Below, piece after piece: positions 12,401 through 35,947 of a DNA stretch of 64,000 nt. Origin of the DNA: Kordiimonas marina. Its GTDB lineage: Bacteria > Pseudomonadota > Alphaproteobacteria > Sphingomonadales > Kordiimonadaceae. The notes beneath the pieces were generated by a model. The model was not told where the DNA came from, ran no database searches, and was given only the letters and a program-made list of their open reading frames with translations. The stretch covers positions 372,001-436,000 of the forward strand of contig NZ_JAINDF010000004.1 of the NCBI RefSeq assembly GCF_023006325.1, in the 5' to 3' direction. The translations under genes were made by a program, and so were the position numbers. Position 1 is the stretch's first letter. Each line of letters starts with the position of its first letter.

Positions 12401-12403
12401 CCA

Positions 12404-12479
12404 TTCTCAGAAATAGACCGACTTTTTCTCAGAAAAAACTGGAAATTTGTAAAGATTCTCAAAAATAGCTGGAAATTTG
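12404..12479 (+). repeat. Left-end TnsB-site-like repeats
   Basis: Three copies read inward on the plus strand: 12404-12420 (TTCTCAGAAATAGACCG, partial), 12426-12449 (TTCTCAGAAAAAACTGG then AAATTTG) and 12456-12479 (TTCTCAAAAATAGCTGG then AAATTTG). Spacings are 22 and 30 bp. Irregular spacing and imperfect units are typical of TnsB binding-site arrays and not of CRISPR. Confidence 0.75.
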
Positions 12480-12723
12480 CCCTGGGTTGCCCCCGCGAAT
12501 TTGCCGGACAACTTTTTAGAAGTTGCCCCCCGTATCCACACAAGAGAGAGATTTGCGCCCTGTCCATTGTGCTTTCAACAGGCACAGCCCTGAGGCCGGG
12601 TTTGCTCTCAACCCCGTTTCGCCCTATGCTGGCGACCAAGCTGCCCGACACTTTGGGCCACTGCGGCCTGGCTAGCATCGGCTTACGCACCATACCATGG
12701 CGTATTGCCAGCAGGGAGCCGCA

Positions 12724-14049
12724 ATGACCGACCGAAACACCGACGACCTCCCGCATGAATTGGCTGACTGGATAACGAAGCCATTTGCACGCTTCCTGAA
12801 GATCGAAGCCGCGGCGGGGGGGCTACTGCTTCTTGCCGTGCTATTGGCCCTGACCCTGGCAAACTCGTCTTGGTCGATGCCATTCCTAAGATTCTGGGAG
12901 ACTCCGGTCGGCTTCCATTTCGGCGCGCTGGAGTTCAGCCGTTCTCTGCGGCATTGGATCAATGATGGGCTGATGACTTTCTTCTTCTTCGTAATATCGC
13001 TTGAGCTCAAGCGCGAGAGCGTCCTCGGCGAGTTGCGGAATATACGAACGGCAGCCCTTCCTTTCGTGGCCGCCCTGGGCGGCATGATCGTTCCGGTGTC
13101 CGTCTATCTGGCCCTGATGGTTGGACAACCGGGCATGCACGGATGGGGATCGGTGATGGCGACCGACACAGCATTCGTGATCGGTTGTCTTGCGCTGTTC
13201 GGCTCCCGGGTTCCAGCAGCATTACGCCTGTTTCTGTTGTCGCTCGCAATCTTCGACGACGTCGGGGCAATCTTGGTGGTGGCGATCGGCTATGGCGATG
13301 GGTTGAACTGGCTGGCGCTCGGGCTGGGCGCACTGGGGCTTGGTGCAGTCGCCGGCATTGCACGCCTCGGAATACGAAGCCTTTCGGTCTATTTCGGCCT
13401 GGGAGCCTTTGTCTGGCTGTGCTTTGACGCCTCCGGCATCCACGCCACCATCGCCGGTGTCATCCTTGGGTTGATGACGCCAACACGCATATGGCTCAGC
13501 GACACGCGCCTGCGGGTGATCCTGGGCCGCGTGCTGGCCTATCCGGGGGGCGAGAGCCCCGATACGGCGGACCGGGACGAGCTCAAAAAGGCAGGCAGGG
13601 CGGTCAGGGAATCGCTCTCGCCGTTGGAACGTCTGGAAATGATGCTGCACCCATGGGTGGCTTTCATCGTGATGCCCCTCTTCGCCCTAGCCAACGCCGG
13701 TGTCGTGATCACGGAGGCTGGGCTCAGTCAGCCGGTCTCTCTGGCGATCTTCGCGGGCCTGGTCCTGGGTAAGCCAATTGGTGTTTTCAGCTTCAGTTGG
13801 CTTGCCGTGCGCCTCAAGCTGGCCACCCGGGCAGGCACATTGAGTTGGCCCATCCTGGCCGCCGGAGCCTTCCTGACCGGTATCGGCTTCACCATGTCGC
13901 TGTTCATCGCCGAACTTGCCTATGCCCGGACCATGCTCGACCCGGCCAAGCTCGGCATTCTCACCGGCTCCGTCTGTTCTGCGGCAATCGGGCTATTGAC
14001 GCTCGCCTGGGTGACCCGGCGGAAAAGAGCCGCTCCAGACCTGGAATAG
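12724..14049 (+). CDS. nhaA: Na+/H+ antiporter NhaA
   Basis: ATG 12724 has GGGAG 5 nt upstream; an earlier in-frame ATG at 12697 lacks one. The protein is 441 residues, slightly above the usual 390-ish, with an N-terminal tail. About 12 membrane helices are visible. The functional aspartates are in ATDTAFVIG (equivalent to D133 of Escherichia coli NhaA) and FDDVGAI (equivalents of D163/D164, the ion-binding pair). It exchanges sodium for protons at the inner membrane under alkaline or sodium stress. It is the first cargo gene inside the left end of the Tn7-like element. A 3' fragment of a close relative is repeated at 18419-18486. Confidence 0.95.
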   Translation: MTDRNTDDLPHELADWITKPFARFLKIEAAAGGLLLLAVLLALTLANSSWSMPFLRFWETPVGFHFGALEFSRSLRHWINDGLMTFFFFVISLELKRESVLGELRNIRTAALPFVAALGGMIVPVSVYLALMVGQPGMHGWGSVMATDTAFVIGCLALFGSRVPAALRLFLLSLAIFDDVGAILVVAIGYGDGLNWLALGLGALGLGAVAGIARLGIRSLSVYFGLGAFVWLCFDASGIHATIAGVILGLMTPTRIWLSDTRLRVILGRVLAYPGGESPDTADRDELKKAGRAVRESLSPLERLEMMLHPWVAFIVMPLFALANAGVVITEAGLSQPVSLAIFAGLVLGKPIGVFSFSWLAVRLKLATRAGTLSWPILAAGAFLTGIGFTMSLFIAELAYARTMLDPAKLGILTGSVCSAAIGLLTLAWVTRRKRAAPDLE

Positions 14050-14219
14050 CGAATGACCGGCCTTTGCCCGCCATAAACCCTATAAGGCATGCGTTGTGAA
14101 GCCTTGCCGAGGATGTATCGACGACCTTTTGCCGGCGCATATGGATGAACCCTCCTGACAAGACTGTCTCCGGCAACTGCAAGCTTTACATGACGCTCTT
14201 TGGATGCGTAGCTTGCCGT

Positions 14220-16001
14220 ATGTCGACGGATCAAATCGGTCTCTTCATGGTGCTTGCCGGTGTCTTCGTGTTTTTTGCGTGGGGACGGTGGCGCTATGAC
14301 ATTGTGGCATTCGCGGCCCTTATGGTCTGCGTGCTGATTGGTATCGTGCCCTCCGACACCGCCTTCACCGGGTTTTCTCACCCGGCGGTGATCACGGTAG
14401 CGGCTGTGCTGATAGTCAGCAAAGGCCTGGCCAACTCGGGCGCAATTGACCGCGTCGCTCATATCGTGGTGCCCCCTCTTAAAAACCTCGCCGCGCAAAT
14501 CGGCGTCATGTCGGGTTTTGCGGCCGTGCTGTCTGCCGTGATGAACAACGTAGCAGCGCTTGCGCTTCTGATGCCCGCGTCCATCGAAAGCGCCAAAAGA
14601 GCCGGCCGGTCGCCAGCGCTATTGTTGATGCCCCTGTCTTTTGGCTCCATCCTGGGCGGCCTGATCACCCTGATCGGCACGCCGCCCAATATCGTGATCG
14701 GCAATTACCGTAGCGACGTGTTAGGGGCGCCGTTTTCGATGTTTGACTTTGCTCCGGTCGGGCTTGCGGTGGCCGCGGTGGGCATTGCTTACCTGGCGCT
14801 TGCCGGCTGGCGGCTTCTTCCCAAGGAAAGACAGGCCAAATCCGCACCCGAAGAGCTGTTTGATATCGATGCCTATATGGCCGAAGTGCGGGTGCCGGCG
14901 GGATCATCCGCCGCCGGAAAATCTCTGGTGCAGCTCGAAAAAGTCGCCGAATCCTGCGACCTCAGTATCGCGGGTATTGTGCGCAATCACAAACCGATGC
15001 TGCGTGTGCCCAGGTCCACCGAGATTCTGGCAAATGATATCCTGCTGCTTGAAACCGGCCCCAAGGAACTGGACACATTCGTCCACAAGCTTGGGCTGGA
15101 AACCATAGGCAGCGCCGATAAAGACAAGGGTCTGTTTGCATCTGACGATGTGGTGCTGGCTGAGGCTGTGATCTCAGCCGACAGCCGCCTGATCGGCCGC
15201 GAAAGTGGCGAGCTGCGGCTAAGATCCCGTTATGGCCTCAATCTTCTGGGGGTTTCGCGCCAGGGTCAGGCCATCCGCAAACGGCTGCATAAGCTTGTCT
15301 TCCGGTCGGGCGACGTTTTGCTGCTTCAGGGTGACGCTGACGGGATCGCAGACACCATGGCTCGGCTTCGGATACTGCCGCTGGCGGAACGTGGCTTCCT
15401 GATGGGGAAACGGAACCAGGCATGGATTGCCGCAAGCCTGCTGGCGGGTGCTGTGGCGCTCGCCGGGCTGGGTGTGGTCGGCTTGACGGTTGCGCTGGCG
15501 CTCGCGGCTCTTGGTATGGTGCTGTTTTCGGTTGTCCCGCTCAGGGATCTTTATGACGCGATTGACTGGCCGGTGATTGTGCTGGTTGCCGCGATGATCC
15601 CGATTGGAGGCGCCCTGGAGACCACCGGCGCCACAGCTTTGATTACCGAAAGCATCCTGCGCCTGTCAGGTTCTCATTCCCCGGCCTTCATTCTGATGCT
15701 GTTGTTCATTGCGACCATGACACTGTCCGACCTGATGAATAATGTCGCGACAGCGGTGATGATGGCGCCTATCGGCACCGGTCTTGCGCAGGCGCTGGGC
15801 GCAAACCCGGACAGTTTTCTGATGGCTGTTGCGGTGGGTTCATCCTGCGCTTTCCTGACCCCGATCGGGCACAAGAATAATGCGCTTGTCATGGGGCCGG
15901 GCGGTTATCACTTTGGCGACTATTGGCGTGTCGGACTGCCACTTGAACTGTTGATTATTGCGGTTGCCATGCCAATGATCCTTTGGGTCTGGCCGTTGTA
16001 G
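14220..16001 (+). CDS. SLC13/DASS-type transporter with TrkA-C (RCK_C) domains
   Basis: From ATG 14220 the protein is 593 residues; in-frame ATGs at 14145 and 14190 are alternatives and no start has a strong ribosome site. The N-terminal half is hydrophobic with the family motif SGFAAVLSAVMNNVAALALLMP and the re-entrant GTPPNIVIGNY. Two soluble TrkA-C domains (about 205-395) follow, then a second membrane half with DLMNNVATAVMMAP and SSCAFLTPIGHKNNALVMGPG. This is the architecture of citrate/sulfate/dicarboxylate-type sodium symporters with regulatory RCK-C inserts. The substrate is unknown. It lies 170 bp after nhaA on the same strand, so sodium coupling within one stress module is plausible. 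Confidence 0.88.
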   Translation: MSTDQIGLFMVLAGVFVFFAWGRWRYDIVAFAALMVCVLIGIVPSDTAFTGFSHPAVITVAAVLIVSKGLANSGAIDRVAHIVVPPLKNLAAQIGVMSGFAAVLSAVMNNVAALALLMPASIESAKRAGRSPALLLMPLSFGSILGGLITLIGTPPNIVIGNYRSDVLGAPFSMFDFAPVGLAVAAVGIAYLALAGWRLLPKERQAKSAPEELFDIDAYMAEVRVPAGSSAAGKSLVQLEKVAESCDLSIAGIVRNHKPMLRVPRSTEILANDILLLETGPKELDTFVHKLGLETIGSADKDKGLFASDDVVLAEAVISADSRLIGRESGELRLRSRYGLNLLGVSRQGQAIRKRLHKLVFRSGDVLLLQGDADGIADTMARLRILPLAERGFLMGKRNQAWIAASLLAGAVALAGLGVVGLTVALALAALGMVLFSVVPLRDLYDAIDWPVIVLVAAMIPIGGALETTGATALITESILRLSGSHSPAFILMLLFIATMTLSDLMNNVATAVMMAPIGTGLAQALGANPDSFLMAVAVGSSCAFLTPIGHKNNALVMGPGGYHFGDYWRVGLPLELLIIAVAMPMILWVWPL

Positions 16002-16971: not shown

Positions 16972-17387
16972 CCCGTACGCGTGACGTCGAGATCAATTTC
17001 CGGTATCCCTTCCAAATTCAAGGATACAAGGGCACATTGCCGGCAGGGACCTATCGTCTTGAAGTTGACGAAGAGCATGTCGGCGATTTGCCGTTTCCGG
17101 CCTACAAGCGTACGCAGGTCACCCTGCATCTCAAGGCAGACCCCGCCCGGCCTGGTGTTTCCGAAATGCTGGCCCTGCCACCTCACCTGATTGATGCCGC
17201 CCTGGCGCGGGACCGTCGGCATGGCCATGCGGTCCGGCCTAGGCCCGTTGCAACGGCTCTTGCCGAGGATATCTCAACCAAACGCGCGCTTGAGCGCGGC
17301 GAAGACGAGGGCATGCTCTGGATCAAGGATGCCCCGGGGCAGTCGGAAAAGGATGCTCGCGTTGGGCGAATGTTTCTCGACGACTGA
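16968..17387 (+). CDS. Hypothetical protein (139 aa), coupled to the 58-aa gene
   Basis: It starts at GTG 16968 within the stop of the preceding gene. The first 60 residues look beta-rich (VEINFRYPFQIQGYKGTLPAG, then TYRLEVDEEHVGDLPF), as in a small sandwich domain. The rest is charged and helical, with EDISTKRALERGEDEG. There is no signal peptide. I recognise no family. Together with its 58-aa partner and the Cys-rich repeat protein after it, it forms a same-strand group in the left cargo. Confidence 0.65.
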   Translation: MTRTRDVEINFRYPFQIQGYKGTLPAGTYRLEVDEEHVGDLPFPAYKRTQVTLHLKADPARPGVSEMLALPPHLIDAALARDRRHGHAVRPRPVATALAEDISTKRALERGEDEGMLWIKDAPGQSEKDARVGRMFLDD

Positions 17388-17460
17388 CGTCCTGACATTT
17401 TTGCGGCGGGCAACACCGCCATCGTTCCAAGCCAAGGATGGGTACCGAAAGCAAGCCCTG

Positions 17461-18360
17461 ATGACAAATGTGAGCAGGTTCAAAACCTATGCGTCCTACC
17501 TGTTGGTGGTTTTGGCGATGCTGCTCTATGGCGGCGTGGCGGTCATGTCTGCCGATTTGGTCCCAGACCTCCCCCCGCATGCTCACGCAAAACCCTATGG
17601 TAGCGACTGGGAATGCGACACGGGCTTTCAGGAAAAGGGTGATAGTTGCATTGCCTTGGCTGCGCCCGCCAACAGTTTTCTGAATGGTCAAAAATATGGG
17701 TCTGGCTGGGAATGCTCTTTCGGTTATCGTCTGCGCGGCCAGCCGCCTGTCTGCGATGCCATTACGGTGCCGCCAAACGGATATTTGAAGGATTCCGTCT
17801 TTGGGGACGGTTGGGGCTGCAACCGGGGCTACCGGAAACATGGTAACGCCTGCCTTGCGATTGCCGTGCCGCTGCATGGATATCTGACCGGGGACGCCGC
17901 CGGCTCCGATTGGGAATGCGAGCGAGGCTTTTATCAACAGGACCGTGCGTGCGTCGCCATCCCTGTGCCGGAACATGGTTATCTGTCCGATGTGGCGCTG
18001 GGTCACGGCTGGGCATGTGAACGCGGCTTCCGGGCGAACGGGACTATATGCCAGGCGATCTCCATACCCGAGCACAGTTACCTGAACGATAGCCAGTATG
18101 GGACTGGGTGGTCCTGTGACAGAGGCTATCAGAAGTCGGGCAATGACTGTGTTGCCGTCCATCTGCCGACGCACGCCTATCTCACGGCGGCTGCCTATCA
18201 TCGGGACGGCTGGGCCTGTGAAAGGGGTTACAGAAAAGTGCCCGGCGCCTGTATCAGCATCATCATTCCTGATCATGCCCACTTGGCCTATTCGGGAAAT
18301 GACTGGGCCTGCGACAAGCCTTTCTCGAAGGAGCAAGATCAATGCGTAGAAGGCCCGTAG
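17461..18360 (+). CDS. Exported Cys-rich tandem-repeat protein
   Basis: ATG 17461 opens an N-terminal membrane/signal segment (SYLLVVLAMLLYGGVAVMSA) in a 299-residue protein. From about residue 40 it consists of eight tandem units of about 33 residues with the pattern P-x-H-(S/G)-Y-L-x(5-7)-G-x-x-W-x-C-x-x-G-(F/Y)-x(5-8)-C-x-(A/S)-I-x-(V/I). Each unit has one Trp and two Cys (16 Cys in all), suggesting one disulfide per repeat in the periplasm or outside the cell, somewhat EGF-like. I know no named family for it. It lies between the 139-aa gene and hflK in the mobile element's left cargo. Confidence 0.75.
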   Translation: MTNVSRFKTYASYLLVVLAMLLYGGVAVMSADLVPDLPPHAHAKPYGSDWECDTGFQEKGDSCIALAAPANSFLNGQKYGSGWECSFGYRLRGQPPVCDAITVPPNGYLKDSVFGDGWGCNRGYRKHGNACLAIAVPLHGYLTGDAAGSDWECERGFYQQDRACVAIPVPEHGYLSDVALGHGWACERGFRANGTICQAISIPEHSYLNDSQYGTGWSCDRGYQKSGNDCVAVHLPTHAYLTAAAYHRDGWACERGYRKVPGACISIIIPDHAHLAYSGNDWACDKPFSKEQDQCVEGP

Positions 18361-18418
18361 AAACAGGAAAAGGATTGGCCACACAACACCAACCCGTCAC
18401 GGCATCGGATTCCACCTT

Positions 18419-18630: not shown

Positions 18631-19710
18631 ATGGCACCCAACGACAACAATAATAATGAAGACAGGCGCACCCCTTGGCGGAGGCCAAGGAGGCCGGGGG
18701 CAGGCAACGATGATCCGATCAGGCAGATGCAGGAGCGCCTAAGGCGGATATTGCCGGGCGGCGGCACCGGTCGCGGAATCGGCGGCTTTCTGGTGCCCGC
18801 CCTTGCCGTGCTTCTGATCGTCATCCTGTGGTCCAGCATCTACACTGTGCCCAGCGATTCCGTCGCCGTGATTCAGCGCTTCGGCAAATACACCAAGGAT
18901 GTGCCTCCGGGGCTTCACCTCAAGCTGCCGCTCGGGATCGATGTCGCGACCCTTGTGCCGGTCAAACGGCAGCTCAAGCAGGAGTTCGGTTTTTTCACCG
19001 CCGGAGCACACGACCCCTACCAAAGTCCGCAGCCCAGAGACATGCAGCGGGAGACCCAGATGGTTACCGGCGACCTGAATGCCGCCCTGGTTGAATGGGT
19101 CGTGCAATACCGGGTTTCCGATCCGGTGAAATTCCTGTTCGAAGTGCGCGAGCCCAGCGAGACGCTCCGCTATGTCTCCGAATCCGTCATGCGCGAGGTG
19201 GTGGGCGACCGCACGGTCGACGAAGTCATCACCATCGGCCGCCAGGAAATCGAGACCGAGGCGCTGGTGAAAATGCAGGCGCTTTCGACCAAATATGCCA
19301 TGGGGCTGAGCATCGACCAGGTCCAGCTCAAGAACATCAACCCGCCGAAGCCTGTGCAGGAATCCTTCAACGAGGTCAACCAGGCCCAGCAGGAAAAAGA
19401 AAAGCTGATCAACGAGGCGCGACGCGACTATAACAAGGTCATCCCCCTGGCCGAAGGCGAGAAGGACCAGCGGATCCGCGAGGCCGACGGCTATCGCCTG
19501 AAACGCATCAATGAAGCCGAGGGCGATGCCGCCCGCTTCAAGGCCTTGCTGGTGCAATATCAGCTCGCGCCCGAGGTAACCCGCCGCAGGCTTTATATCG
19601 AAACGCTCGAAAGCGTGCTGCCGGGCATCAAATCGAAAATCGTCATCGACGCGCAATCGACGAGCGTCCTGCCCCTGTTGAACCTCGATAGCCCCGAAGG
19701 GAAAAAATAA
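18631..19710 (+). CDS. hflK: HflK-like SPFH membrane protein
   Basis: The protein has 359 residues with the HflK order: a Gly/Pro/Arg-rich cytoplasmic N-terminus, one membrane segment near residues 50-68 (FLVPALAVLLIVILWSS), the SPFH/band-7 domain (SVAVIQRFGKYTKDVPPGLH) and a coiled-coil region rich in Glu/Ala/Arg. AAAGGG precedes the ATG. Family role: with HflC it forms a cage around FtsH and modulates membrane-protein turnover. Its stop overlaps the hflC start (TAATG). It lies inside the Tn7-like element without an FtsH or HflX neighbour, so it is probably an accessory copy for membrane stress. Confidence 0.92.
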   Translation: MAPNDNNNNEDRRTPWRRPRRPGAGNDDPIRQMQERLRRILPGGGTGRGIGGFLVPALAVLLIVILWSSIYTVPSDSVAVIQRFGKYTKDVPPGLHLKLPLGIDVATLVPVKRQLKQEFGFFTAGAHDPYQSPQPRDMQRETQMVTGDLNAALVEWVVQYRVSDPVKFLFEVREPSETLRYVSESVMREVVGDRTVDEVITIGRQEIETEALVKMQALSTKYAMGLSIDQVQLKNINPPKPVQESFNEVNQAQQEKEKLINEARRDYNKVIPLAEGEKDQRIREADGYRLKRINEAEGDAARFKALLVQYQLAPEVTRRRLYIETLESVLPGIKSKIVIDAQSTSVLPLLNLDSPEGKK

Positions 19711-20711
19711 TGTCGCGCCCGCTCAAAATAGCCCTGTTCCTGGTGCTGGGTGCCATTCTCGTCGGCATCTCGGGGGCATTCTACACCGTCAGCGAAGTCG
19801 AGCAGATCATCATCACCCAGTTCGGCAAACCTGTGGGCAAACCGGTCACGACAGCGGGCCTGAAGATGAAAATCCCGTACATTCAGGAGGTCAATTCGAT
19901 CGATCGCAGGGTTCTCGAATGGGACGGCAACCCATCCGACATGCCGACGAAGGACAAGCTCTATATCTCGGTCGATCTGTTCGCGCGCTGGCGCATTGTC
20001 GACCCGCTGCAGTATTTCCTGCGCCTGAGGGACGAGCGCAGCGCCCAGTCCCGGTTGGACGATATCCTGGGCAGCGAAACCCGCAACGCTGTAGCCAAGC
20101 ACGAGCTTATCGAGATCATCCGCACCACCAAGGACCGGGTTCCTCTGCGCGACACCTACCTGACCGATGCCGAGCGCGAGCTACACATGGGGGCGCTTGT
20201 GCCGATCCAGAAAGGCCGCACGACCGTGGAACGCGAGCTGTTTGCCGCGGCGGCGGAAAAGGTGCGCGTCTTTGGCATCGAACTGCTGGATATCCGCTTC
20301 AAGCGCATCAACTATAACGAAAGCGTGCGCCCCAAGATATATGACCGCATGATCAGCGAACGCCGCCAGATTGCCGAACGCTTCCTGTCGGAAGGCAATG
20401 GCGAGGCCGCCCGGATACGCGGCAACAGGGTGCGGGACCTCAATAAAATCCAGTCGGAGGCCTATAAGCAGGTCGAAGAAATTCGCGGCAAGGCCGACGC
20501 GGCCGCCGCCGAAATCTATACGAAAGCCTACAACCAGTCGCCCGTCTCCGCCGAGTTTTACGAGTTCACCCGAACCCTTCAATCCTACAAGGCCATCATG
20601 GGAAAAGATGCGACGCTGATCCTGACCACCGACAGTGACCTCTTCAAATTCCTGAAAGAGATGAAGGCCACATCGACCGGCTCGACCGGGACGGCACCCT
20701 CCCGGCATTAA
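19710..20711 (+). CDS. hflC: HflC-like SPFH membrane protein
   Basis: The protein has 333 residues: an N-terminal membrane anchor (KIALFLVLGAILVGISGAF), an SPFH domain (YTVSEVEQIIITQFGKPVG), and then an Ala/Glu/Arg-rich helix with SEGNGEAARIRGNRVRDLNK, a region conserved in HflC. The ATG shares one base with the hflK stop, so the pair is translationally coupled. Periplasmic topology is expected for the SPFH part. It is a partner of HflK in regulating FtsH. Confidence 0.92.
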   Translation: MSRPLKIALFLVLGAILVGISGAFYTVSEVEQIIITQFGKPVGKPVTTAGLKMKIPYIQEVNSIDRRVLEWDGNPSDMPTKDKLYISVDLFARWRIVDPLQYFLRLRDERSAQSRLDDILGSETRNAVAKHELIEIIRTTKDRVPLRDTYLTDAERELHMGALVPIQKGRTTVERELFAAAAEKVRVFGIELLDIRFKRINYNESVRPKIYDRMISERRQIAERFLSEGNGEAARIRGNRVRDLNKIQSEAYKQVEEIRGKADAAAAEIYTKAYNQSPVSAEFYEFTRTLQSYKAIMGKDATLILTTDSDLFKFLKEMKATSTGSTGTAPSRH

Positions 20712-23950: not shown

Positions 23951-23955
23951 GTGTC

Positions 23956-26509: not shown

Positions 26510-26614
26510 AAAAATTCTCCTGCCCTCGCACAAAAATGGGAGCACAAAAGATATTAATGAGTCAAATTTTGATATTTTTTCGCTCTTTTTTGAGCCATTT
26601 CAAGGCCAGTTCAA

Positions 26615-26969: not shown

Positions 26970-28052
26970 TCAACTACAGTTCAGACATAGCTTCCCAAAA
27001 TGGTCAGCCGCCGCTTCAATATCAGAAAACACCTTGCATCCATTGACTGCTGTTAGGTCGATCTGAGGCCTCGTAACAAGATCATGCAGCGGGCCTTCTG
27101 TCAGGAAAGCATCACAATAGCTGAGGGCGGCAGTTGCATGTTCAAAGTCATAGTAGTCATTGGGCTTGAATTTACGACATTTGTCCCAACGCATAGACGC
27201 GTGGATGGATGCGCCAATATGGATACATCGAAGGGTGTCTCTCGCCGTTGCCTTTTTGAAAGCGTAGTAAAGTATATTGCTGCACATATTAACGGTGCTG
27301 GCACGCTGCTCCGGCGTCGGCGAAAATGTGCATCCAGCATCTTTTTCAGCAAGCTCCTGGATAACATCGGCTGCTATTTCGCTTGCGACCTCAATGCCCC
27401 CTCGCAGCTCAATGTCGTACGTTTGTGCGAAACTACGAAGCTCGTCCTTGTGTAGGGTATTTTGGACATTAGTCTCGTAGGCTAGGTCTTTGAAGTGAGG
27501 CGTTGGTGTCTTGTCACCTATCATCTCCACCATTCCGCTCAAAGTATAGTTCCAGAGGTAGTCATAGAAGGCTTCCTGGATTACGAGTTCCTCGGTCGGG
27601 GGAAGCTGAGAGATAGAAGGATAGTTCACACCAAGAACATATCCGACTTTGGTCCATATCAGCTCCTGCATGGAATAGAGGTCTACAAAGCCTTTAGATT
27701 TGAGCAGGAAAGAATACACCTCTGTTCCCAGAACGGTATGAGGTGGGGCCATACTGACACCAAGACTCAACTCATCAATGAGCTGGGCTGTGCCGATCCT
27801 GCGGCCTTGGCTATATGATTGCTTTAGCAGTTCCAGAAACATGCTGGCGCTGATTGGGCACACGAGACATCCATTTGCCACCCCACGCCGCAAGTGATTC
27901 AGAAGCTTGATTGCTCCAGCATCGGAAGAAACGTCTAGAGCGGCATCTCGCAAAATGATCCAGTAGCGCGCATCAAGATAGACCTTTAGTCGGCCTAAGA
28001 GCGACCGACCAAGCTCTATTTGGCGTGCTCGGTTGTGTTCCAGGATGCTCAT
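26970..28052 (-). CDS. PIN-like domain protein, possible defence nuclease
   Basis: From ATG 28052 (an upstream ATG at 28070 is equally possible) the protein is 360 residues. N-terminal KVYLDARYWIILRDA (first Asp), then CPISASMFLELLKQ (Glu), and C-terminal YYDFEHATAALSYCDAFLTE with HDLV give the acidic D-E-D-D order of PIN-type RNases arranged around a large helical insert. I recognise no exact family. It stands alone on the minus strand between the XRE gene and the OLD/UvrD operon in the defence-like cargo. Alternatives include a toxin without a visible antitoxin. Codon use is AT-rich like the neighbouring cargo. Confidence 0.55.
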   Translation of the reverse strand: MSILEHNRARQIELGRSLLGRLKVYLDARYWIILRDAALDVSSDAGAIKLLNHLRRGVANGCLVCPISASMFLELLKQSYSQGRRIGTAQLIDELSLGVSMAPPHTVLGTEVYSFLLKSKGFVDLYSMQELIWTKVGYVLGVNYPSISQLPPTEELVIQEAFYDYLWNYTLSGMVEMIGDKTPTPHFKDLAYETNVQNTLHKDELRSFAQTYDIELRGGIEVASEIAADVIQELAEKDAGCTFSPTPEQRASTVNMCSNILYYAFKKATARDTLRCIHIGASIHASMRWDKCRKFKPNDYYDFEHATAALSYCDAFLTEGPLHDLVTRPQIDLTAVNGCKVFSDIEAAADHFGKLCLNCS

Positions 28053-28319
28053 ATGCTTTATGATACGCACAGCCTTGGCTGCACCCTCTAAAAGTTATAT
28101 TCGACCACAAAAGATTTAGTACACAATCGCATAATACGGGCTTCCAAATATTCATATACTCCCAACTGGTATAACTTCGGGGCAACGCAGCACTAAAGAG
28201 CCTGCTGGCGACGCAAACGTGATTAAAAGTCACAAAATGAAGAGTTGCCGTTTGCCATCCCCCTGTACTTCAGCGATAATTTCCTTAAATCACAACCACA
28301 TGTCAGGCGATTAGGGAAA

Positions 28320-30632
28320 ATGCGACTTGCTTTTATTGAAATTCAAAACTTTCGGAAATTGAAATCCGTTCGAATTGATATTGCAGAGCAATCAACCTTG
28401 CTTGTCGGAGCAAATAACAGTGGCAAGACCTCTGCTATGGATGCAATGGGGCACTTCCTCACGCGAGAGAACCAATTTCGCCCAGACGATTTCACGCTTT
28501 CCAACTGGCCCCTAATAGAGGCCATCGCTGAGAAGTGGGAAGCTGAACAAGGGCAGCCTGATCCAGCACCAGTCACGTTGCAGGAATGGGAACCGCTGCT
28601 GCCTTCAATGGATGTTTGGCTAGATATCGAGACCAACGAAGTACACTACGTCTCGCATCTAATTCCGAAGCTTTCTTGGCGCGGTGGAAAACTCGGTGTC
28701 AGACTTAGATTCGAGCCCAATGTTGAACACCTGCGCAGAGAATATCTCAAAGCTCGAAACACAGCAAAAGACACCAAGAACAAGGGTGGTGAGACAGCCA
28801 AGGACGTTCTGCTTTGGCCGCAATCCATGCGAGATTTCCTCGACAAGCAATCCAATCTTAAAATGTTTTTTTCTATTGTTTCCTATACCTTGGACCCCGG
28901 AAAGCTTCAAAAACCGACCGATAATTCAGCCATTCCACAGAAATTGCCGGAAAGTGCCGTTCAAATTACGTCTGATCCATTAAAAGGATTGATGCGAGTT
29001 AATCACATTAATGCCCAACGGGGATTTAAAGACCAAAGCCACAAAGAAGACAAGGAAGATAGCGACGGGGGTACAGATGGCCGAAGGCTCAAGAAATTAT
29101 CCGCACAACTCCGCTCCTATTATAATAAGCACATCAACCCTTCAGAAGCGCCTGAACCATCCGACTTGGCAGCAATAATGTCTCTACAGAAGGCACAAAA
29201 CGCCTTCAGTGAAAGCTTGGAAAAAGATTTTACCAAGGTATTGGGGGAAATGGCCGACTTGGGTTTCCCTGGTATGACCGATCCCAAAATCCGCTTTCTT
29301 GCAAAAGTGGCCCCGGTGGATGCACTTAATCATCCTGCTGCTGTTCAGTATGAACTACCGACGAATGACAAGTCTGCGGGCGATATCCCGTTGCATCTAC
29401 CAGAAGATTACAATGGCTTGGGGTATCAAAACCTGATCTCAATGGCGTTCCGCCTGATGAGTTTCAGAGATCAATGGATGATGGTCGGTAAAGCCGGGAA
29501 AGAAGTCCAGGCGGAACCTACGGACGAGTTGAGCTTTCCGCCCCTACATGTAGTTCTCGTTGAAGAGCCGGAAGCTCACCTTCACGCTCAGGTCCAGCAA
29601 GTTTTCATGCGCAAAGCTTACGACATTTTGCGCAATCATGAGGATTTGGGGGAAGGCTCCAGCTTACAAACTCAACTCGTTATCAGCACTCATTCCAGCC
29701 ACATTGCGCATGAGGCCAATTTTTCAGACCTAAGATATTTTCGCAGAGTGCCTGCCTCTAATAAGGCGCACAACATACCAACGTCTACAGTCGTGAACAT
29801 GTCTGGGGTGTTTGATGACCGAAAAAAGGTCGCTCGCTTTGCTAGCCGCTACCTAAAGGCATCACATTGTGATCTGTTTTTTGCCGACGCCCTCATCATC
29901 GTTGAGGGAGCAGCAGAAAGAATGTTGCTGCCGCACTTCATCAAGGAGCAACACCCCGAGCTACACAAGCGGTATATATCAATCTTGGAGCTTGGCGGCA
30001 GGCACGCACACCGACTTCGAAGATTAATTCAGCATATGCAGCTAACTACGCTGATTATTTCCGATCTGGACTCTGTTGGTGCAGATGGAAAGAAGGCTCC
30101 ACCAGCCCGAGGGGCAGGTATGAAAACTGGAAACCCAACACTGGCAAAGTGGATGCCTGGGAAAAACGACCTCGATCACCTATTAGATTTGCCAAGCTCT
30201 GATAAAACTAAAGAGTATGCAGCAGGCTTTCTAGTGCGTTCAGCTTACCAAACTCCAGTAATGTGCAAGCTCACAGAAGGAGCGGGCGAAAAAGAGGTTC
30301 TTGCCTACACCTTTGAAGATGCACTGATTTATGAAAACATAGAAAAATTCCGCACCTTAAAAGGGACCGGTCTCATCCGAAAGGCCCGTGACACTATTAG
30401 TACCACTCCGGATGCCGCTGACCTTAGCTCAAAAATCCAGGAAATTCTTAAGACCGGCAATAAAGCAGAGTTTGCCTTGGACTTACTTTATGATTCTGAT
30501 CCGAAAGTCCTGAAAGTTCCAGGCTACATAGACGAAGGGCTGACCTGGCTAACGCACCTAGTGTCGGCCAACACAGCCGAGGTTTTGCCACAACCAGATG
30601 CAGACAATGTCCTGGAGGAGGCGGTAGCATGA
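28320..30632 (+). CDS. OLD-family ATPase/TOPRIM nuclease (GajA-like)
   Basis: ATG 28320 (AGGGAAA just upstream) gives 770 residues; earlier in-frame ATG 28245 is less likely. The ABC-type ATPase part has Walker A GANNSGKT (30-37), the Walker B/signature region LVEEPEAHLHAQ near 413, and the His switch STHSSHIAHE. The TOPRIM nuclease follows, with the catalytic Glu in IIVEGAAE near 527 and D-L-D in IISDLDS near 581. Class 2 OLD proteins and Gabija GajA have this order and pair with a UvrD-like helicase, as here: the stop overlaps the next start (ATGA). It is longer than typical GajA (about 580), with inserts in the ATPase part. Anti-phage DNA cleavage is the likely role. Confidence 0.9.
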   Translation: MRLAFIEIQNFRKLKSVRIDIAEQSTLLVGANNSGKTSAMDAMGHFLTRENQFRPDDFTLSNWPLIEAIAEKWEAEQGQPDPAPVTLQEWEPLLPSMDVWLDIETNEVHYVSHLIPKLSWRGGKLGVRLRFEPNVEHLRREYLKARNTAKDTKNKGGETAKDVLLWPQSMRDFLDKQSNLKMFFSIVSYTLDPGKLQKPTDNSAIPQKLPESAVQITSDPLKGLMRVNHINAQRGFKDQSHKEDKEDSDGGTDGRRLKKLSAQLRSYYNKHINPSEAPEPSDLAAIMSLQKAQNAFSESLEKDFTKVLGEMADLGFPGMTDPKIRFLAKVAPVDALNHPAAVQYELPTNDKSAGDIPLHLPEDYNGLGYQNLISMAFRLMSFRDQWMMVGKAGKEVQAEPTDELSFPPLHVVLVEEPEAHLHAQVQQVFMRKAYDILRNHEDLGEGSSLQTQLVISTHSSHIAHEANFSDLRYFRRVPASNKAHNIPTSTVVNMSGVFDDRKKVARFASRYLKASHCDLFFADALIIVEGAAERMLLPHFIKEQHPELHKRYISILELGGRHAHRLRRLIQHMQLTTLIISDLDSVGADGKKAPPARGAGMKTGNPTLAKWMPGKNDLDHLLDLPSSDKTKEYAAGFLVRSAYQTPVMCKLTEGAGEKEVLAYTFEDALIYENIEKFRTLKGTGLIRKARDTISTTPDAADLSSKIQEILKTGNKAEFALDLLYDSDPKVLKVPGYIDEGLTWLTHLVSANTAEVLPQPDADNVLEEAVA

Positions 30633-32557
30633 CGAGCGTGAACGCGGTTCCTCAACTCGACAATACTATCGATGATCATGTTGATGGAAACATCGTCTCT
30701 TATTTTAACCTGAAAAGACCTAAGAGCTTTTTTCTATTCGCAGGCGCAGGATCAGGGAAGACACGAACGCTAGTAAATTCCCTAAAGACGTTTTTGAAAG
30801 AGAATGATCGGCAACTGAGGCTAAACGGCAGGCGGATCGCGGTTATCACCTTTACAAACGCAGCGTGTGAGGAAATCAAAGACAGGCTGGAGTTCCACCC
30901 AGCGGTTTCGGTTTCGACAATCCATAGTTTTTTGTGGTCGATGATAAAAGGCTTCAACTCGGACATTGGAGAGTGGTTGGCAAGTGATTTGCGCGAAACG
31001 ATAGCCGAACTGGAAGAGAAACAGGCCAAGAGCAAAAACCCCACTACAAAAACCTACATAGATCGAGCGAAAAGCATCGAAGCCAAGCGGCAACGGCTAG
31101 AACAACTCAGCGAAATTCAGGAGTTTACGTATAATCCTAATGGAGAGAACCGTGAGCGGGATTCTTTAGATCATTCAGAAGTCATCAAGATCGGTTCGAC
31201 CTTCCTTGAGAGGGAGCCCTTGATGCAGGAAATTCTTGTTGCGCGTCATCCCATCCTACTGATTGACGAGTGCCAAGACACCAACAAGCTTCTTGTGGGT
31301 GCACTTTACGCAATCCAAGCCAGATTTCCAGAGAAGTTCTGCTTGGGCTTAATTGGCGATACTATGCAGCGGATTTATACCGATGGGCGGCAGGATTTAG
31401 GCACCTATACCCCTGATGGCTGGGCAAAACCAGCCAAGGTGATGAACCATCGCTCACCTAAGAGGGTGGTTCAGCTCATCAATAAAATCAGATCGCAAGT
31501 AGACACGCAGCAACAGCAACCTCGAACGGATGCCGAGGCCGGGACAGTTCGTCTCTACATTTGCAAATCTGACAGTCAAGACAAGGCTGCTGTTGAACGC
31601 TCCATAATGTTAGCTATGTCTGAAGAAACTGGCGATCCTCTGTGGTCAGGCGCCGGCGCGGACGTCAAAGCACTTGTTCTAGAACACCACATGGCGGCAA
31701 GACGCATGGGCTTCCTCCCGATGTTTGAACCCCTACATTCTTCTTCGCGGCTGAAAACCAGCCTGCTCGATGGGACGCTGTCTGCATTGCGCTTATTTTC
31801 CGAGCTTATACTTCCGTTAAAAACGGCAGCACTGGCCCAAGATGAGTTTACAGTTGCATTGATAGTACGGCGGGCTTCACCATTGCTGGGCAAGCGGACG
31901 CTCCAAGCAGACGGAAACACTCAGTTAAATCAGCTTGCCAAGGCAGAAACGGCAGTAAGTCATCTATTAGAATTATGGGACAACGGCGGTGATCCAACAT
32001 TTATGGACGTGTTGCTTAATGTCGCAGGTTCAGGACTTTTTTCCATCCCTGACGCCTTAATTCCAATTGTTCGGAGAAAGACAGATACCACACAAGAAGA
32101 GCTCGAAAGATTATTCAAAGAACTCGGTCAAGCTGACGAACAGGATGAGGCCTCTCCATTGGATCATTGGGACCGTTTTCTGCAAACACCCTTTAGCCAA
32201 ATTGAAAGCTATAGAAGCTATGTCGCTGGCACGGCCCCCTTCGATACCCATCAGGGCGTCAAGGGACTTCAGTACCCGCGTGTCATGGTGGTCATGGATG
32301 ACGCTGAGGCCAAAGGTTTCCTTTTCGCATACGATAAGCTGTTTGGCGTCAAGGAACCCTCCGATACAGATAGGAAGAATGAAGCCGACGGCGCAGATAC
32401 GAGCATCACCCGTACTTTACGTCTCTTTTATGTAACCTGTAGTCGTGCCCAGAAAAGCCTCGCTCTCGTTGCCTATACATCTGACCCCGAGGGTTTGAAG
32501 AAAAACGTAATTGAGGCCGGATGGTTCGAAGACCATGAGGTGATTGTCCATGATTGA
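30629..32557 (+). CDS. UvrD/PcrA-like superfamily 1 helicase (GajB-like)
   Basis: The protein has 642 residues and begins in the ATGA overlap with the OLD gene. SF1 motifs in order: FAGAGSGKTRTL (Walker A), VITFTNAACEEIKDRL (Ia), ILLIDECQDTNKL (II), LIGDTMQRIY (III), HQGVKGLQYPRVMVV (V), RLFYVTCSRAQKSL (VI). It is the obligate partner of GajA/class 2 OLD nucleases in Gabija-type defence. It is larger than Bacillus GajB (about 500). Its 3' end overlaps the phosphatase gene by 8 bp, showing a three-gene operon. Confidence 0.9.
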   Translation: MTSVNAVPQLDNTIDDHVDGNIVSYFNLKRPKSFFLFAGAGSGKTRTLVNSLKTFLKENDRQLRLNGRRIAVITFTNAACEEIKDRLEFHPAVSVSTIHSFLWSMIKGFNSDIGEWLASDLRETIAELEEKQAKSKNPTTKTYIDRAKSIEAKRQRLEQLSEIQEFTYNPNGENRERDSLDHSEVIKIGSTFLEREPLMQEILVARHPILLIDECQDTNKLLVGALYAIQARFPEKFCLGLIGDTMQRIYTDGRQDLGTYTPDGWAKPAKVMNHRSPKRVVQLINKIRSQVDTQQQQPRTDAEAGTVRLYICKSDSQDKAAVERSIMLAMSEETGDPLWSGAGADVKALVLEHHMAARRMGFLPMFEPLHSSSRLKTSLLDGTLSALRLFSELILPLKTAALAQDEFTVALIVRRASPLLGKRTLQADGNTQLNQLAKAETAVSHLLELWDNGGDPTFMDVLLNVAGSGLFSIPDALIPIVRRKTDTTQEELERLFKELGQADEQDEASPLDHWDRFLQTPFSQIESYRSYVAGTAPFDTHQGVKGLQYPRVMVVMDDAEAKGFLFAYDKLFGVKEPSDTDRKNEADGADTSITRTLRLFYVTCSRAQKSLALVAYTSDPEGLKKNVIEAGWFEDHEVIVHD

Positions 32558-33035
32558 GGTATTTCCAAATTTATTCATTGGGGATCAGAACGATGAGATG
32601 GCGTTAACATCTCGCGATTCCTGGTTTGTCATCCACGCTTGTAAAGAGCCGTATCATAGGCAAGCACTTGGGTACTCTGGAAGAGCTGCCTCAAAGGACC
32701 ATCCAGAATACCTGATGGCTAAACGGGATGGATGCCTGATCTTGAATCTGGTCGATGTACCTGACCCTAAGTATATATCGCTCGAAATTATGGCTGAAGC
32801 CGTAGCCACCATACATGAACAAATTGGCAGTAAGAGGGTTTTGGTTCATTGCAATCAGGGCATGTCAAGATCGCCTTCAATTGCATTCCTTTATCTAGTC
32901 AAGCATACCGATATTTTCTCAGGGAAAAGCTTAGATGAAGCGCTTAGTGCATTTCAGGCGATGTATTCGCTTTACAGTCCCGCAGCAGGCGTGGCCAGCT
33001 TTATTCGTCAACATTGGCATGTCTTCAGTTCGTAG
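32550..33035 (+). CDS. Dual-specificity phosphatase-like protein, third gene of OLD/UvrD operon
   Basis: ATG 32550 overlaps the helicase stop (ATGATTGA), so translation is coupled. The protein is 161 residues. The Cys-phosphatase loop HCNQGMSRSPS (nucleophilic Cys about 101) matches HCxxGxSRS, and the N-terminal start VFPNLFIGDQND is typical of DSP folds. The general acid Asp is probably in LVDVPDPKY. It could dephosphorylate a protein or a nucleotide/inositol-type signal. A phosphatase is not part of the standard two-gene Gabija system, so a regulatory or effector role here is an inference from operon structure. Confidence 0.82.
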   Translation: MIEVFPNLFIGDQNDEMALTSRDSWFVIHACKEPYHRQALGYSGRAASKDHPEYLMAKRDGCLILNLVDVPDPKYISLEIMAEAVATIHEQIGSKRVLVHCNQGMSRSPSIAFLYLVKHTDIFSGKSLDEALSAFQAMYSLYSPAAGVASFIRQHWHVFSS

Positions 33036-33151: not shown

Positions 33152-34180
33152 CTAAGGAAGAATTGCCCAGTTGGGGCGATTATCCTGAACGAGCTCACGC
33201 AGTTCTTGTGGTTCAATCACTTCAACATCCATCCCCCAAATCATTAAGTGCCAAGCCATTTCCTGTAAGCCTCCAGCAGTAAACTCTACTGTCAGGCTTC
33301 CATCATCCTCTCGTGTTAGCTTTTGATCAGGGTGGAATTCGAAATCAATGGCATGGGGTACGGCCTTTGGCGAGAACCGCCACACGGTTCGACTAGCGGC
33401 CTCTGAATATACTCCAAAAAAGGACCGCGCATAGTCACGCATCCTAAAGTCCTCAGGGCGCACAAATGAAGAGGACAACACTTCGACCCTCAGGAGTTTA
33501 GGCAGCGCGTAATGCCGGAGCCTGTCATCCTGGCGACTGGGGTTTCGGGCTACAAGGTAGTTTCGATGGCCGTATAGGAGCCCATATGGTTCGACAACAT
33601 GGCATTCAGCGGGTTTATCTAGGTTCTTCTGATATTCAATAGCTATCTGATTGTACCCCTTAATTGCTTCTTTAAGGGGAGACAATATCTCTGGATTGAT
33701 GCGCTGCTTGGGGCCTGGCTGGGCAGCTATAGCGTCGGCAGAGACCAAACTATCGTAGTCAGGTTCAAGGCGTCGCAGCGTCTCATTCTTCAGGTGATAT
33801 CGGAACAGTGACGCAATTTTTTTAACAGCCTCAGCTTCGGCATTGCGGCCGTGGTTCTCCAATAAATGGCATGCGCCGTCCAAAGCGGCTAGATCCTCAG
33901 GGGTTGCTTCTGGAATAGGAATTCGCACATTGCGAGGCAGGCGCCAGCGCGCTTCACCATCAATCCCCTTAAATTCCTCTAGCTGAGGAAAGGCAGTTCT
34001 GCATGCCTGGATATTTCGTTGGGCAGATCGATGACAGATTCCCAAAGCTTCCTCGATTTCGCGGTAGCTAATGCCATTTATCCTGACCTGCATCTCCAGC
34101 ATCAGGTTGATCAGCTCTCCCAGCTTCTCCCCTCTCGCCACGAAACTCTCCCATAGGTAGCTTTCATGGTTGTATATCAT
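33152..34180 (-). CDS. WYL-domain transcriptional regulator
   Basis: The protein has 342 residues. The N-terminal winged helix spans about residues 20-75 (SYREIEEALGICHRSAQRNI). A middle helical linker is followed by a WYL domain from about 165 (AIEYQKNLDKPAECHVVEPYGLLYGHRNYLV) and a C-terminal WCX-like extension (AGGLQEMAWHLMIWGMDVEV). WYL regulators such as BrxR/CapW commonly repress defence operons until a nucleic-acid or nucleotide signal binds. It is convergent with the phosphatase gene and divergent from the small-gene cassette at 34279, with a large inverted repeat between. Confidence 0.88.
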   Translation of the reverse strand: MIYNHESYLWESFVARGEKLGELINLMLEMQVRINGISYREIEEALGICHRSAQRNIQACRTAFPQLEEFKGIDGEARWRLPRNVRIPIPEATPEDLAALDGACHLLENHGRNAEAEAVKKIASLFRYHLKNETLRRLEPDYDSLVSADAIAAQPGPKQRINPEILSPLKEAIKGYNQIAIEYQKNLDKPAECHVVEPYGLLYGHRNYLVARNPSRQDDRLRHYALPKLLRVEVLSSSFVRPEDFRMRDYARSFFGVYSEAASRTVWRFSPKAVPHAIDFEFHPDQKLTREDDGSLTVEFTAGGLQEMAWHLMIWGMDVEVIEPQELRELVQDNRPNWAILP

Positions 34181-34488: not shown

Positions 34489-34503
34489 CTTTGGAGATAA
34501 GAC

Positions 34504-34677: not shown

Positions 34678-35048
34678 TGCCGAACAGGGATATTCATGTC
34701 CTCGCCGGAGCGATCGCAGGTGCTCTTTTGACCAAGGATTCTGAGGATAGCAATGATACAGACCCCACGACCTCGGTACTTGTTGGTGCGGCCGCAGGGG
34801 CTGTAGGTGGGCGTCTCCCCGATATTCTGGAGCCCGCATTGCATCCAAACCATCGCCAATTCTTCCATAGCTATGCTGTCCTCGGATTGCTTGGCTGCGG
34901 TTTCTACCATGCCGCAAAGTGGTCCCCTGAAACAGGATGGGAGAAATGTCTGCGCTACCTTACCCTCGGCATGATCGGAGGCTACGCTTGTCATCTCCTA
35001 TTTGATGGAACCACACCAAAAGGCTTACCTCTCGTTGGGAAGCTATAA
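34677..35048 (+). CDS. YdjM-like membrane-associated metal-dependent hydrolase family protein
   Basis: The protein has 123 residues. The start RDIHVLAGAIAGAL, then GRLPDILEPALHPNHRQFFHS, matches the YdjM/LexA-regulated inner-membrane family pattern (PD....HR..-HS), with conserved Asp/His that could bind metal. Two to three hydrophobic segments (LVGAAAGAVGG, YAVLGLLGCGFYH, MIGGYACHLLFDG) give a short membrane protein, and HLLFDG-TPKGLPLVG at the end is also family-typical. It is coupled to the 57-aa gene. A role in stress or defence is inferred only from context. Confidence 0.75.
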   Translation: MPNRDIHVLAGAIAGALLTKDSEDSNDTDPTTSVLVGAAAGAVGGRLPDILEPALHPNHRQFFHSYAVLGLLGCGFYHAAKWSPETGWEKCLRYLTLGMIGGYACHLLFDGTTPKGLPLVGKL

Positions 35049-35073
35049 ACAACTTCGTTTGGAGACATCAGTC

Positions 35074-35817
35074 GTGGACGGTATGAATAAGAGTGCTTTT
35101 GGGCCAGCTATTGGCCCAGTATCAATGCTGGCCGATTTGCGTATGACCGTTGATCTTCTTCTGGAGCATCGGTTGAAAATTCCGGTGTATTTCCGGGAGC
35201 GTTATGACCTTATGCGCTATTTGCGGCGCGCGCATTTCGAAATCCGCCCCATTGGGCGTCGAAGCACTGACAACGTTTTTGCGGTACATAACGAGTTTGC
35301 CCGGTTTGTTTGGGCCCGCACAGGTTACACCTGTTTTCGGCAGGCACTGGCAGATGTAGCGACAGGGCCAATGTATAGGGATGATCGCGCAAGCATGCAG
35401 TTCGTTCATGTTGACCACGTCCAAAATCGCCGGGCTGTTCGGGAACATCCGAATTCTTGGCTAATGCTTTTCCCCCTAGAGAAGGGTGTGAACAGTTGGT
35501 ATGGCAGTCGCATCGAACGGGGTTACAAAGTTGCGCGCTGGGTGGACCACCTTTGCCTCACTCCGATTCAGGCATTCAAAATTTTTGTTAGTCGATATCC
35601 AAAGACGCAGCAGGAGTTTGAGCTGGCTACCCGAGACATTCTTGGGCAGACTCAGCAGCTAGAAACCTGGCGCTATATCGTCGAAGGTTCTGCAAAAGCT
35701 TTGGGGTATGCTATGAAAGAACCGAGCGAACTCCCGCCAATTGATGACGAAGCTTTTGAGCAAGGTGCCTATGTGGCCAAAATGCTTTTAAACCCGATGT
35801 ACCACCCTGAAGCATAG
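35074..35817 (+). CDS. Hypothetical protein, possible HNH-like motif
   Basis: I choose GTG 35074 (GGAG 9 nt upstream; ATG 35083 is an alternative), giving 247 residues and 26 bp after the YdjM-like stop. A soluble helical start leads to MQFVHVDHVQNRRAVREHPNSW and LMLFPLEKGVNSWYGSRIERG, where D-H followed by N and a later N resembles a degenerate HNH nuclease core with a fixed gap. There are no Cys pairs. I recognise no family with confidence. It is the last gene before the element's right end. Confidence 0.55.
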   Translation: MDGMNKSAFGPAIGPVSMLADLRMTVDLLLEHRLKIPVYFRERYDLMRYLRRAHFEIRPIGRRSTDNVFAVHNEFARFVWARTGYTCFRQALADVATGPMYRDDRASMQFVHVDHVQNRRAVREHPNSWLMLFPLEKGVNSWYGSRIERGYKVARWVDHLCLTPIQAFKIFVSRYPKTQQEFELATRDILGQTQQLETWRYIVEGSAKALGYAMKEPSELPPIDDEAFEQGAYVAKMLLNPMYHPEA

Positions 35818-35870
35818 AGGGCCCTTGCCAGATAGCATAACTTCTATGCACCGATGGCCCGGTTGCGTCT

Positions 35871-35934
35871 CAGTAGCTTGAGATTTTTCTCACGAACTCT
35901 GAGATTCAACAAAATTTCCAGCTTATTTTGAGAC
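35871..35934 (-). repeat. Right-end TnsB-site-like repeats
   Basis: Read on the minus strand, copies begin at 35934 (GTCTCAAAATAAGCTGG then AAATTTTG), 35906 (AATCTCAGAGTTCGTG, diverged) and about 35888 (AAATCTCAAGCTACTG, diverged). The outermost copy matches the left-end unit at 12456-12479 with two mismatches and one inserted T. They point inward, opposite to the left-end set. Confidence 0.75.
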
Positions 35935-35947
35935 TTAATAGAGGGCG

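Follow-up and report, generated by a model that had tools for sequence, protein, structure and literature searches.

The window analysed here is a 64,000-nucleotide stretch of the Kordiimonas marina genome (contig NZ_JAINDF010000004.1, positions 372,001 to 436,000; coordinates below count from its first base). It contains a 23.6-kb interval that, by its predicted genes and ends, is a Tn7-like transposon encoding TnsA, TnsB, TnsC and a long TniQ and abutting a tRNA-Ile2 (CAU) gene. The four tns genes (tnsA-like, tnsB, a TniB-type tnsC and a 640-amino-acid tniQ) all lie on the minus strand, flanked by stress-type cargo on the left and by a Gabija block on the right. The closest relative found by TnsB (44% identity) is an element in G019, a genome from another genus of the same family, and it serves for comparison in the feature list:

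12343..12478, plus strand: left end, terminus TGTGCAATTTCAC, with TYTCA cores at 12350, 12405, 12427 and 12457 in a four-site layout like that of the G019 left end
12697..14049, plus strand: NhaA Na+/H+ antiporter, left cargo (Pfam PF06965, 1.8e-134)
14145..16001, plus strand: CitMHS/TrkA-C transporter, left cargo (Pfam PF03600, 4e-83)
17191..18360, plus strand: Cys-rich repeat protein, left cargo (no Pfam match over the cut-off, no NCBIfam match)
18631..19710, plus strand: SPFH/Band_7 protein, HflK-like, left cargo (PF01145, 2.8e-30)
19710..20711, plus strand: SPFH/Band_7 protein, HflC-like, left cargo (PF01145, 1.8e-25)
21093..23015, minus strand: tniQ/tnsD, 640 amino acids (PF06527, 2.3e-09; paired with the G019 TniQ in a tree)
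23015..23965, minus strand: tnsC, TniB-type AAA ATPase, 316 amino acids (PF05621, 7.5e-26)
23956..25404, minus strand: downstream part of tnsB, 482 amino acids, catalytic core and Mu_C (PF09299, 6.4e-11; rve 4.3e-4, under the cut-off; phmmer 3.6e-136 against the G019 TnsB)
25492..25944, minus strand: upstream part of tnsB, an open reading frame (ORF) of 150 amino acids, terminated by an in-frame TAG
25883..26545, minus strand: tnsA-like endonuclease (PF08722 6.2e-05 and NCBIfam TnsA-like 1e-09, both under the cut-off; phmmer 3.6e-36 against the G019 TnsA)
26970..28070, minus strand: 366-amino-acid protein, right block (no match in Pfam, PADLOC or NCBIfam)
28245..30632, plus strand: GajA (Gabija), right block (PADLOC GajA, 2e-273)
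30629..32557, plus strand: GajB (Gabija), right block (PADLOC GajB, 6e-249)
32544..33035, plus strand: dual-specificity-phosphatase-like protein, right block (PF00782 8.3e-08, 32.6 bits, just under the cut-off)
33152..34180, minus strand: WYL-domain regulator, right block (PF13280, PF25583; PADLOC WYL models and a model named Cas3c)
35002..35817, plus strand: 271-amino-acid protein, right block (no match in Pfam, PADLOC or NCBIfam)
35864..35940, minus strand: right end, reading TATTAAGTCTCAAAATAAGCTGGAAATTT from 35940 down, with TYTCA cores at +7, +36 and +57
35948..36024, minus strand: tRNA-Ile2 (CAU), attachment gene, 3' end towards the element (ARAGORN)

The initial annotation had placed tnsA, tnsB, tnsC and a 640-residue tniQ between two cargo blocks, and Pfam, NCBIfam and phmmer comparisons bear this out. 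The predicted products are the Tn7-like set of a TnsB-type DDE transposase (interrupted), a TnsC AAA+ protein, a TniQ-family protein and TnsA. The TnsA C-terminal family PF08721 gave no match in this genome and the controls were equally silent; the G019 TnsA narrowly passes the Pfam cut-off (26.8 versus 26.5 bits). The names HflK and HflC for the two SPFH/Band_7 proteins are ones we take to apply, and the Cas3c match of the WYL protein (4.2e-20) is taken as a WYL match.

An in-frame TAG at 25492–25494 splits tnsB into ORFs of 150 and 482 amino acids, and the frame is open on either side of it. Residues D260, D344 and E380 (G019 TnsB numbering), presumably the TnsB catalytic acids, are invariant in the window part and in three relatives. 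Because of the interruption, the window copy is probably immobile, barring a sequencing error or bypass of the stop. The tnsB of a related element in G003 (L073, 6019–8135) is split over two frames.

Inward-facing arrays of predicted TnsB sites are present at both ends. The 64 kb contain three exact copies of the 10-mer CTGGAAATTT, two on the plus strand at the left end and one on the minus strand at the right end. When one mismatch is allowed there are seven matches, a number reached by 16 of 100 shuffles, and a looser site pattern gives 18 matches, slightly above chance (reached by 7 of 100 shuffles). Since the mismatch-tolerant searches perform close to chance, the end calls rest on exact matches, clustering and layout. 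The left end, from 12343, begins TGTGCAATTTCACGAATAGCTGG, and its TYTCA cores lie at +7, +62, +84 and +114, compared with +7, +61, +83 and +113 in the G019 element. This four-site layout, a post hoc definition, has a single occurrence on the two strands of the window and none in 200 mononucleotide shuffles. It starts at 12343, so the left boundary proposed earlier, 12401, falls 58 bp inside the end. The right end, from 35940, reads TATTAAGTCTCA; its terminus lies 7 bp from the tRNA. The 30-bp spacing described in the initial annotation for both ends is confirmed for the left one (12426 to 12456), but the right one has spacings of 29 and 21. The 5-mers flanking the corrected termini, TGACG and GAGGG, differ, and thus there is no recognisable target duplication at the window copy.

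ARAGORN labels the tRNA at 35948–36024 as Met(CAU). A separate elongator-type Met(CAU) gene with the anticodon loop ATCATAA is found elsewhere in the same genome (L174), and because of this gene with a different loop we read the attachment gene, whose loop is CTCATAA, as tRNA-Ile2 rather than elongator Met. It also has C4-C5 in the acceptor, which we take to be a mark of tRNA-Ile2.

The G019 element, which we call the sister, also adjoins tRNA-Ile2 and is oriented like the window copy, with 9 bp between its right end and the tRNA. It is 22,322 bp long, with TGT/ACA termini, a perfect 5-bp duplication (GCTGG) and an intact tnsB. Its far-side block encodes RtcR, RtcB, a DNA polymerase III alpha-type protein, an impB/mucB/samB-type protein and DUF6602; the polymerase and impB/mucB/samB-type proteins are presumably DnaE2- and ImuB-like. 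The block that separates tnsA from the tRNA-proximal end has three ORFs of at least 100 amino acids, one encoding a reverse transcriptase. The two-sided cargo layout, which had seemed odd in the window copy because Tn7 carries its tns genes against one end, is thus by gene order a feature shared with an element that has a perfect duplication. In a TnsB tree the window and sister proteins are joined with 100/100 support, and the fork with the Thalassospira proteins is weak (41/48). A TniQ tree had been proposed as a check on use of tRNA-Ile2; here the window and sister TniQ form a supported pair (96), with both elements at tRNA-Ile2.

Ends of this kind recur at the same tRNA across the family of the window genome. 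A pattern consisting of the tRNA 3' part, CCA, 3–14 bases and TRTNNNNTYTCA was searched in 396 genomes of the order and gave 15 matches in 14 genomes; the reversed-pattern control gave none. Eight matches are at tRNA-Ile2, in seven genomes (G000, which is the window genome, G009, G012 twice, G016, G018, G019 and G020), all within this family of 29 genomes. The remaining seven come from seven genomes of other families and adjoin different tRNAs. In G009, G012, G016, G018 and G020 the searches identified neither a TniQ nor a TnsB related to those of the window element (the Pfam TniQ search covered the first four), so the ends in these genomes are read as relics or cargo-only elements. In total, nine end positions in eight genomes of the family lie 6–10 bp past tRNA-Ile2, a fixed insertion point just past one tRNA.

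Stacking is evident at this point. In G019, GCTGG stands directly between the left end of the sister and the right end of a further element, so this position was used twice. No left end was found for the further element: a scan for partners of its right-end sequence, covering 60 kb (20 to 47 kb left of the tRNA), yielded no other GCTGG candidate. In G005, missed by the pattern, AAAGG flanks a 2,071-bp segment that is immediately followed by another right-end-like sequence; resting on a 17/26 end match, stacking here is only probable. Tn7 strongly inhibits a second insertion through target immunity, according to PMC11406308; the abutting, near-identical G019 ends look like an exception to it. 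A scan for end pairs in G006, G003, G017 and G015 gave no convincing pair.

A second group of elements uses the same tRNA in Thalassospira. A scan of named genomes with a TnsB alignment gave 163 relatives, and among the best 80 of these 163 loci a CAU tRNA is present in five slices, exactly the five Thalassospira ones (L180, L182, L188, L221 and L242, in G396–G399). All five encode separate TnsA, TnsB, TnsC and TniQ. Where the junctions are readable (G396, G398 and G399), the right end lies 9–11 bp past tRNA-Ile2. The G399 element is 31,609 bp long, with ATAAT on both sides, and sits 11 bp past the chromosomal tRNA-Ile2; it and the sister are the two elements at tRNA-Ile2 with two confidently identified ends, and both have 5-bp duplications. 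The site is unoccupied in G412: its alignment to G399 runs for 1,620 columns (93.6%) and stops exactly at base 12818, the last one ahead of the element. Similarity picks up again at the far end of the element, overlapping by the 5 bp of the duplication, but extends for only 33 bp (97%), with no further match to the G399 flank reported beyond these. G412 is a natural empty site that fits the G399 insertion to the base.

Read across the empty site, the sequence forms a hairpin starting right after the tRNA, both when the G399 flanks are joined and in G412 (−19.2 kcal/mol). As the hairpin begins at this position, insertion parts the tRNA from a terminator-like structure, for which a role as terminator is plausible. 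Among 29 Thalassospira genomes searched, 26 had readable flanks (G397 ends inside the tRNA, and G411 and G416 were not located by the search expression). Of these 26, seven carry an element end 7–12 bp past the tRNA (G398 recognised by eye, the other six by the expression), and seven have a hairpin with a folding energy of −19 kcal/mol or lower within the first 45 nucleotides past the tRNA.

The protein most likely to select this site is TniQ. It has a TniQ domain and an excisionase/MerR-like helix-turn-helix (HTH) region (342–401), with a similar unit at 401–458; a match to HTH_17 at 345–396 is below the cut-off. In a structure model compared with the PDB, a TniQ part and an HTH fold of the excisionase/MerR type are recognisable; the model is mostly of low confidence beyond about residue 510, a region on which we base no conclusion, and the comparison barely reaches past residue 401. 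The predicted fold reveals no target. We infer from co-occurrence and a predicted DNA-binding fold that TniQ itself reads the tRNA. A TniQ peptide pattern detected no close relatives in genome contigs, and in plasmids it matched eight records, none covering 80%.

We consider it very probable that the interval represents a member of a group of Tn7-like cut-and-paste transposons in which a TnsD-type TniQ homes to tRNA-Ile2. TnsB would bind TYTCA-type sites at both ends, and TniQ, via its TniQ domain and HTH modules, would bind the 3' part of the tRNA gene and load the TnsC AAA ATPase. TnsA and TnsB would insert the element 6–12 bp past the tRNA, with the tnsA-proximal end towards it. Such insertion would leave the tRNA intact and separate it from the downstream hairpin, the putative terminator. 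Elements would pile up at tRNA-Ile2, with tns-less ends persisting there, and the window copy, without a readable tnsB, would probably be a fixed stress/defense island.

Several observations weigh against this interpretation. In a quick TniQ tree with long branches, the window and Thalassospira proteins (the latter joined with a support of 99) fall in separate clades. HTH_17 modules are also present in the L181 TniQ, whose 11-kb contig has no CAU tRNA, and the sister TniQ lacks the last ~240 residues of the window protein. Given the different clades and the modules in L181, no tRNA-specific TniQ feature was identified; given the separate clades and the weak TnsB fork, use of tRNA-Ile2 may have arisen twice. 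The flanks of the window copy do not match as a target duplication would, and its left flank is next to the tRNA in none of the slices examined. These slices came from 16 same-genus genomes (0.3 to 18 kb on that side) and yielded no empty site for the window copy. Close homologues (85% and 82%) of the left-flank gene (10913–12157) are on other contigs of G018 and G016, away from the tRNA, and give no junction because DNA similarity ends within the gene. With neither a duplication nor a left-flank match, the left half of the element is tied to the right half only by the common end motif and layout. A duplication is a footprint that can decay, or vanish in a composite, and its absence here could be explained by mutation or by composite origin from stacked elements. 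For this reason, classification as Tn7-like rests on the proteins and ends.

A composite origin is the most substantial alternative, although we think it rather doubtful. In this scenario two separate insertions would have stacked at one tRNA, one bringing the left end and left cargo and the other the Gabija genes and right end, before a deletion or recombination event joined them. Such a history would account for two ends without a matching duplication, and its ingredients exist in the abutting ends of two elements in G019 and probably G005. In addition, the sister has an internal left-end-like sequence (L096, 17582) to the left of its tns genes, 23/26 identical to its right end. Against this, both window ends share the exact 10-mer, which is found nowhere else in the window, the filtered list of sites between them contains one isolated left-end-type match (23394, inside tnsC) and no arrayed end, and the sister is two-sided too, with a perfect duplication.

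It is very unlikely that the tRNA position is a general island hotspot of the integrase type in place of Tn7-like homing. Other elements do reach it: 17 same-genus tRNA flanks besides that of the window were classed by eye as six Tn7-like, four with a serine recombinase, four with a GTCTAACC inverted repeat and three other. The large serine recombinase genes, which extend to the tRNA in four further genomes of this genus, were recognised in L030 by Pfam and in L036, L037 and L039 by homology. The inverted-repeat class lies some tens of nucleotides past the tRNA, reads GTCTAACC..GGTTAGAC with variants (L026, L031, L034 and L040, by eye) and may mark a different mobile element; a Thalassospira version reads GTGTCCCACG..CGTGGGACAC with variants (L291, L293, L305, L307, L308 and L309, by eye). 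However, no integrase or resolvase was detected among the 19 interval ORFs scanned with Pfam, the tnsB rve domain aside, and two bacterial groups have Tn7-like ends at a distance of 6–12 bp from the 3' end of the tRNA, accompanied by 5-bp duplications in G019 and G399.

The originally proposed boundaries, 12401–35938 with a TAGAG duplication, can hardly be right: identical TAGAG copies are present on either side (12396–12400 and 35939–35943), but the left one is inside the end, the right one overlaps the terminus, and the proposed left terminus lacks a TRT terminus and the outermost site, which the sister has another 54 bp outwards; at the corresponding place in the window, 55 bp out, stands TGTGCAATTTCA. 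We therefore regard TAGAG as a coincidence, and the empty-site junction predicted from these boundaries loses its support.

The tRNA-Ile2-homing element resembles Tn7 in having TnsA, TnsB and TnsC with a long TniQ-family protein, a fixed attachment site, a 5-bp duplication (here in the sisters) and its tnsA-proximal end towards the attachment gene. Tn7 itself uses TnsABC and TnsD to insert at glmS. The window element differs in its target gene, in the 9.4 kb from tnsA to the end and in that no TnsE was recognised among the scanned ORFs. The Tn5053 family (TniA, TniB, TniQ, TniR) is similar in its TniB-type short TnsC and TniQ; to our knowledge this family is without TnsA, whereas the window element has a tnsA-like gene and no resolvase among the 19 ORFs. 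Tn5053-family elements also target plasmid resolution sites, according to PMC11406308, unlike the window element. Homing of TnsD/TniQ-type proteins to tRNA genes is known for the type I-B2 and I-D CRISPR-associated transposons (CASTs), which, as described in PMC11406308 and PMC10293859, share with the window element a TnsD/TniQ-type protein, a tRNA attachment site and insertion downstream of the tRNA. They have a fused TnsAB (PMC11406308) and CRISPR-Cas genes, whereas TnsA and TnsB are separate here and Pfam identified no Cas family in 20 scanned ORFs (19 of them in the interval; CRISPR arrays were not searched for). CyCAST inserts around 30–33 nucleotides past tRNA-Leu (PMC10293859), in contrast to 6–12 bp past tRNA-Ile2. 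The Thalassospira elements differ from that of the window in their TniQ clade and end motif (GTGCCA), and four of the five tns loci have an extra tRNA-Ile2.

We found no open-access paper linking Tn7-like elements with tRNA-Ile, Thalassospira or a carried tRNA gene, in a search that did not cover most subscription papers and bioRxiv preprints. The findings would add an AUA-decoding tRNA to the homing sites of Tn7-like elements, with insertion near enough to the tRNA to cut it off from a terminator-like hairpin. The site may illustrate how islands grow via repeated insertion and loss of transposition genes, and the intact sister, inserted just past a conserved tRNA, would offer a natural targeted-insertion system to assay.

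The extra Thalassospira tRNA-Ile2 genes lie downstream of tniQ (two in G397 and one each in G398 and G399; not G396). In G399, the one of these four loci with a located outer boundary, the gene is inside the element. In all four spares the acceptor, anticodon and T stems are fully paired; relative to the chromosomal copy, both bases are changed in the second and fourth pairs of the T stem. A promoter-like box (TTGAC-N17-TAGTTT) precedes all four by 74–76 bp, and a similar one precedes the two chromosomal copies examined by 85–86 bp. In the 29 Thalassospira genomes only one more close second copy (89%) is present, in G424. These genes raise the question of whether a transposon may carry an essential host gene to offset its own insertion damage. 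It is conceivable, and we propose it only tentatively, that tRNA-Ile2-homing elements carry a full replacement gene (promoter and tRNA) that offsets terminator loss and is perhaps also a portable attachment site, the window element having lost its spare or never had one; ARAGORN detected no second copy in the window. Against this reading, among the seven readable occupied-site genomes spares are present in G398 and G399 and absent from G396, G406, G415, G419 and G421. Given these five, a spare is not a requirement, an argument against rescue as a simple necessity.

In G012, of the window genus, a second tRNA-Ile2 (L029, 1627–1703) has two acceptor-stem mismatches, is 16.5 kb from the main copy and has its own Tn7-like end 7 bp away. 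Directly behind the G399 spare are genes for a DncV-like cyclase, an E2/ThiF fusion and JAB (L221, 17633–20984), presumably a cyclic-oligonucleotide-based anti-phage signaling system (CBASS).

tRNA-Ile2 decodes AUA, and the AUA share of Ile codons is 24.7% in the window tns genes, 17.6% in the element and 6.1% in the flanks. Codon supply as a reason for an element-borne tRNA-Ile2 was rejected as a special effect: in a comparison of seven Ile2 elements with 69 other Tn7-like gene sets, base composition suffices (residual z −1.0 to +2.0).

Within the left cargo, 66 bp from the 3' end of nhaA recur at 94% identity upstream of the hflK-like gene (13974–14039 and 18416–18479), perhaps as the scar of a rearrangement. 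Homologues of the Cys-rich cargo protein (41–42% identity) adjoin homologues of the left-flank dehydrogenase (10913–12157) in G018 and G016 (L090 and L092), on contigs other than those with the tRNA-Ile2 of these genomes.

The window genome has a second Tn7-like element (G000:C21:256968-290597; L070, L071, L098 and L099), which abuts the 3' end of gyrB, has the duplication ACATG and contains long uninterrupted tnsB, tnsC and tniQ ORFs. This site looks stacked too, because another left-end-like sequence is directly behind the far end of the element. Also identified was a 15.6-kb Tn7-like element in G002 (L076, 3791–19393), with the duplication ATGGC.

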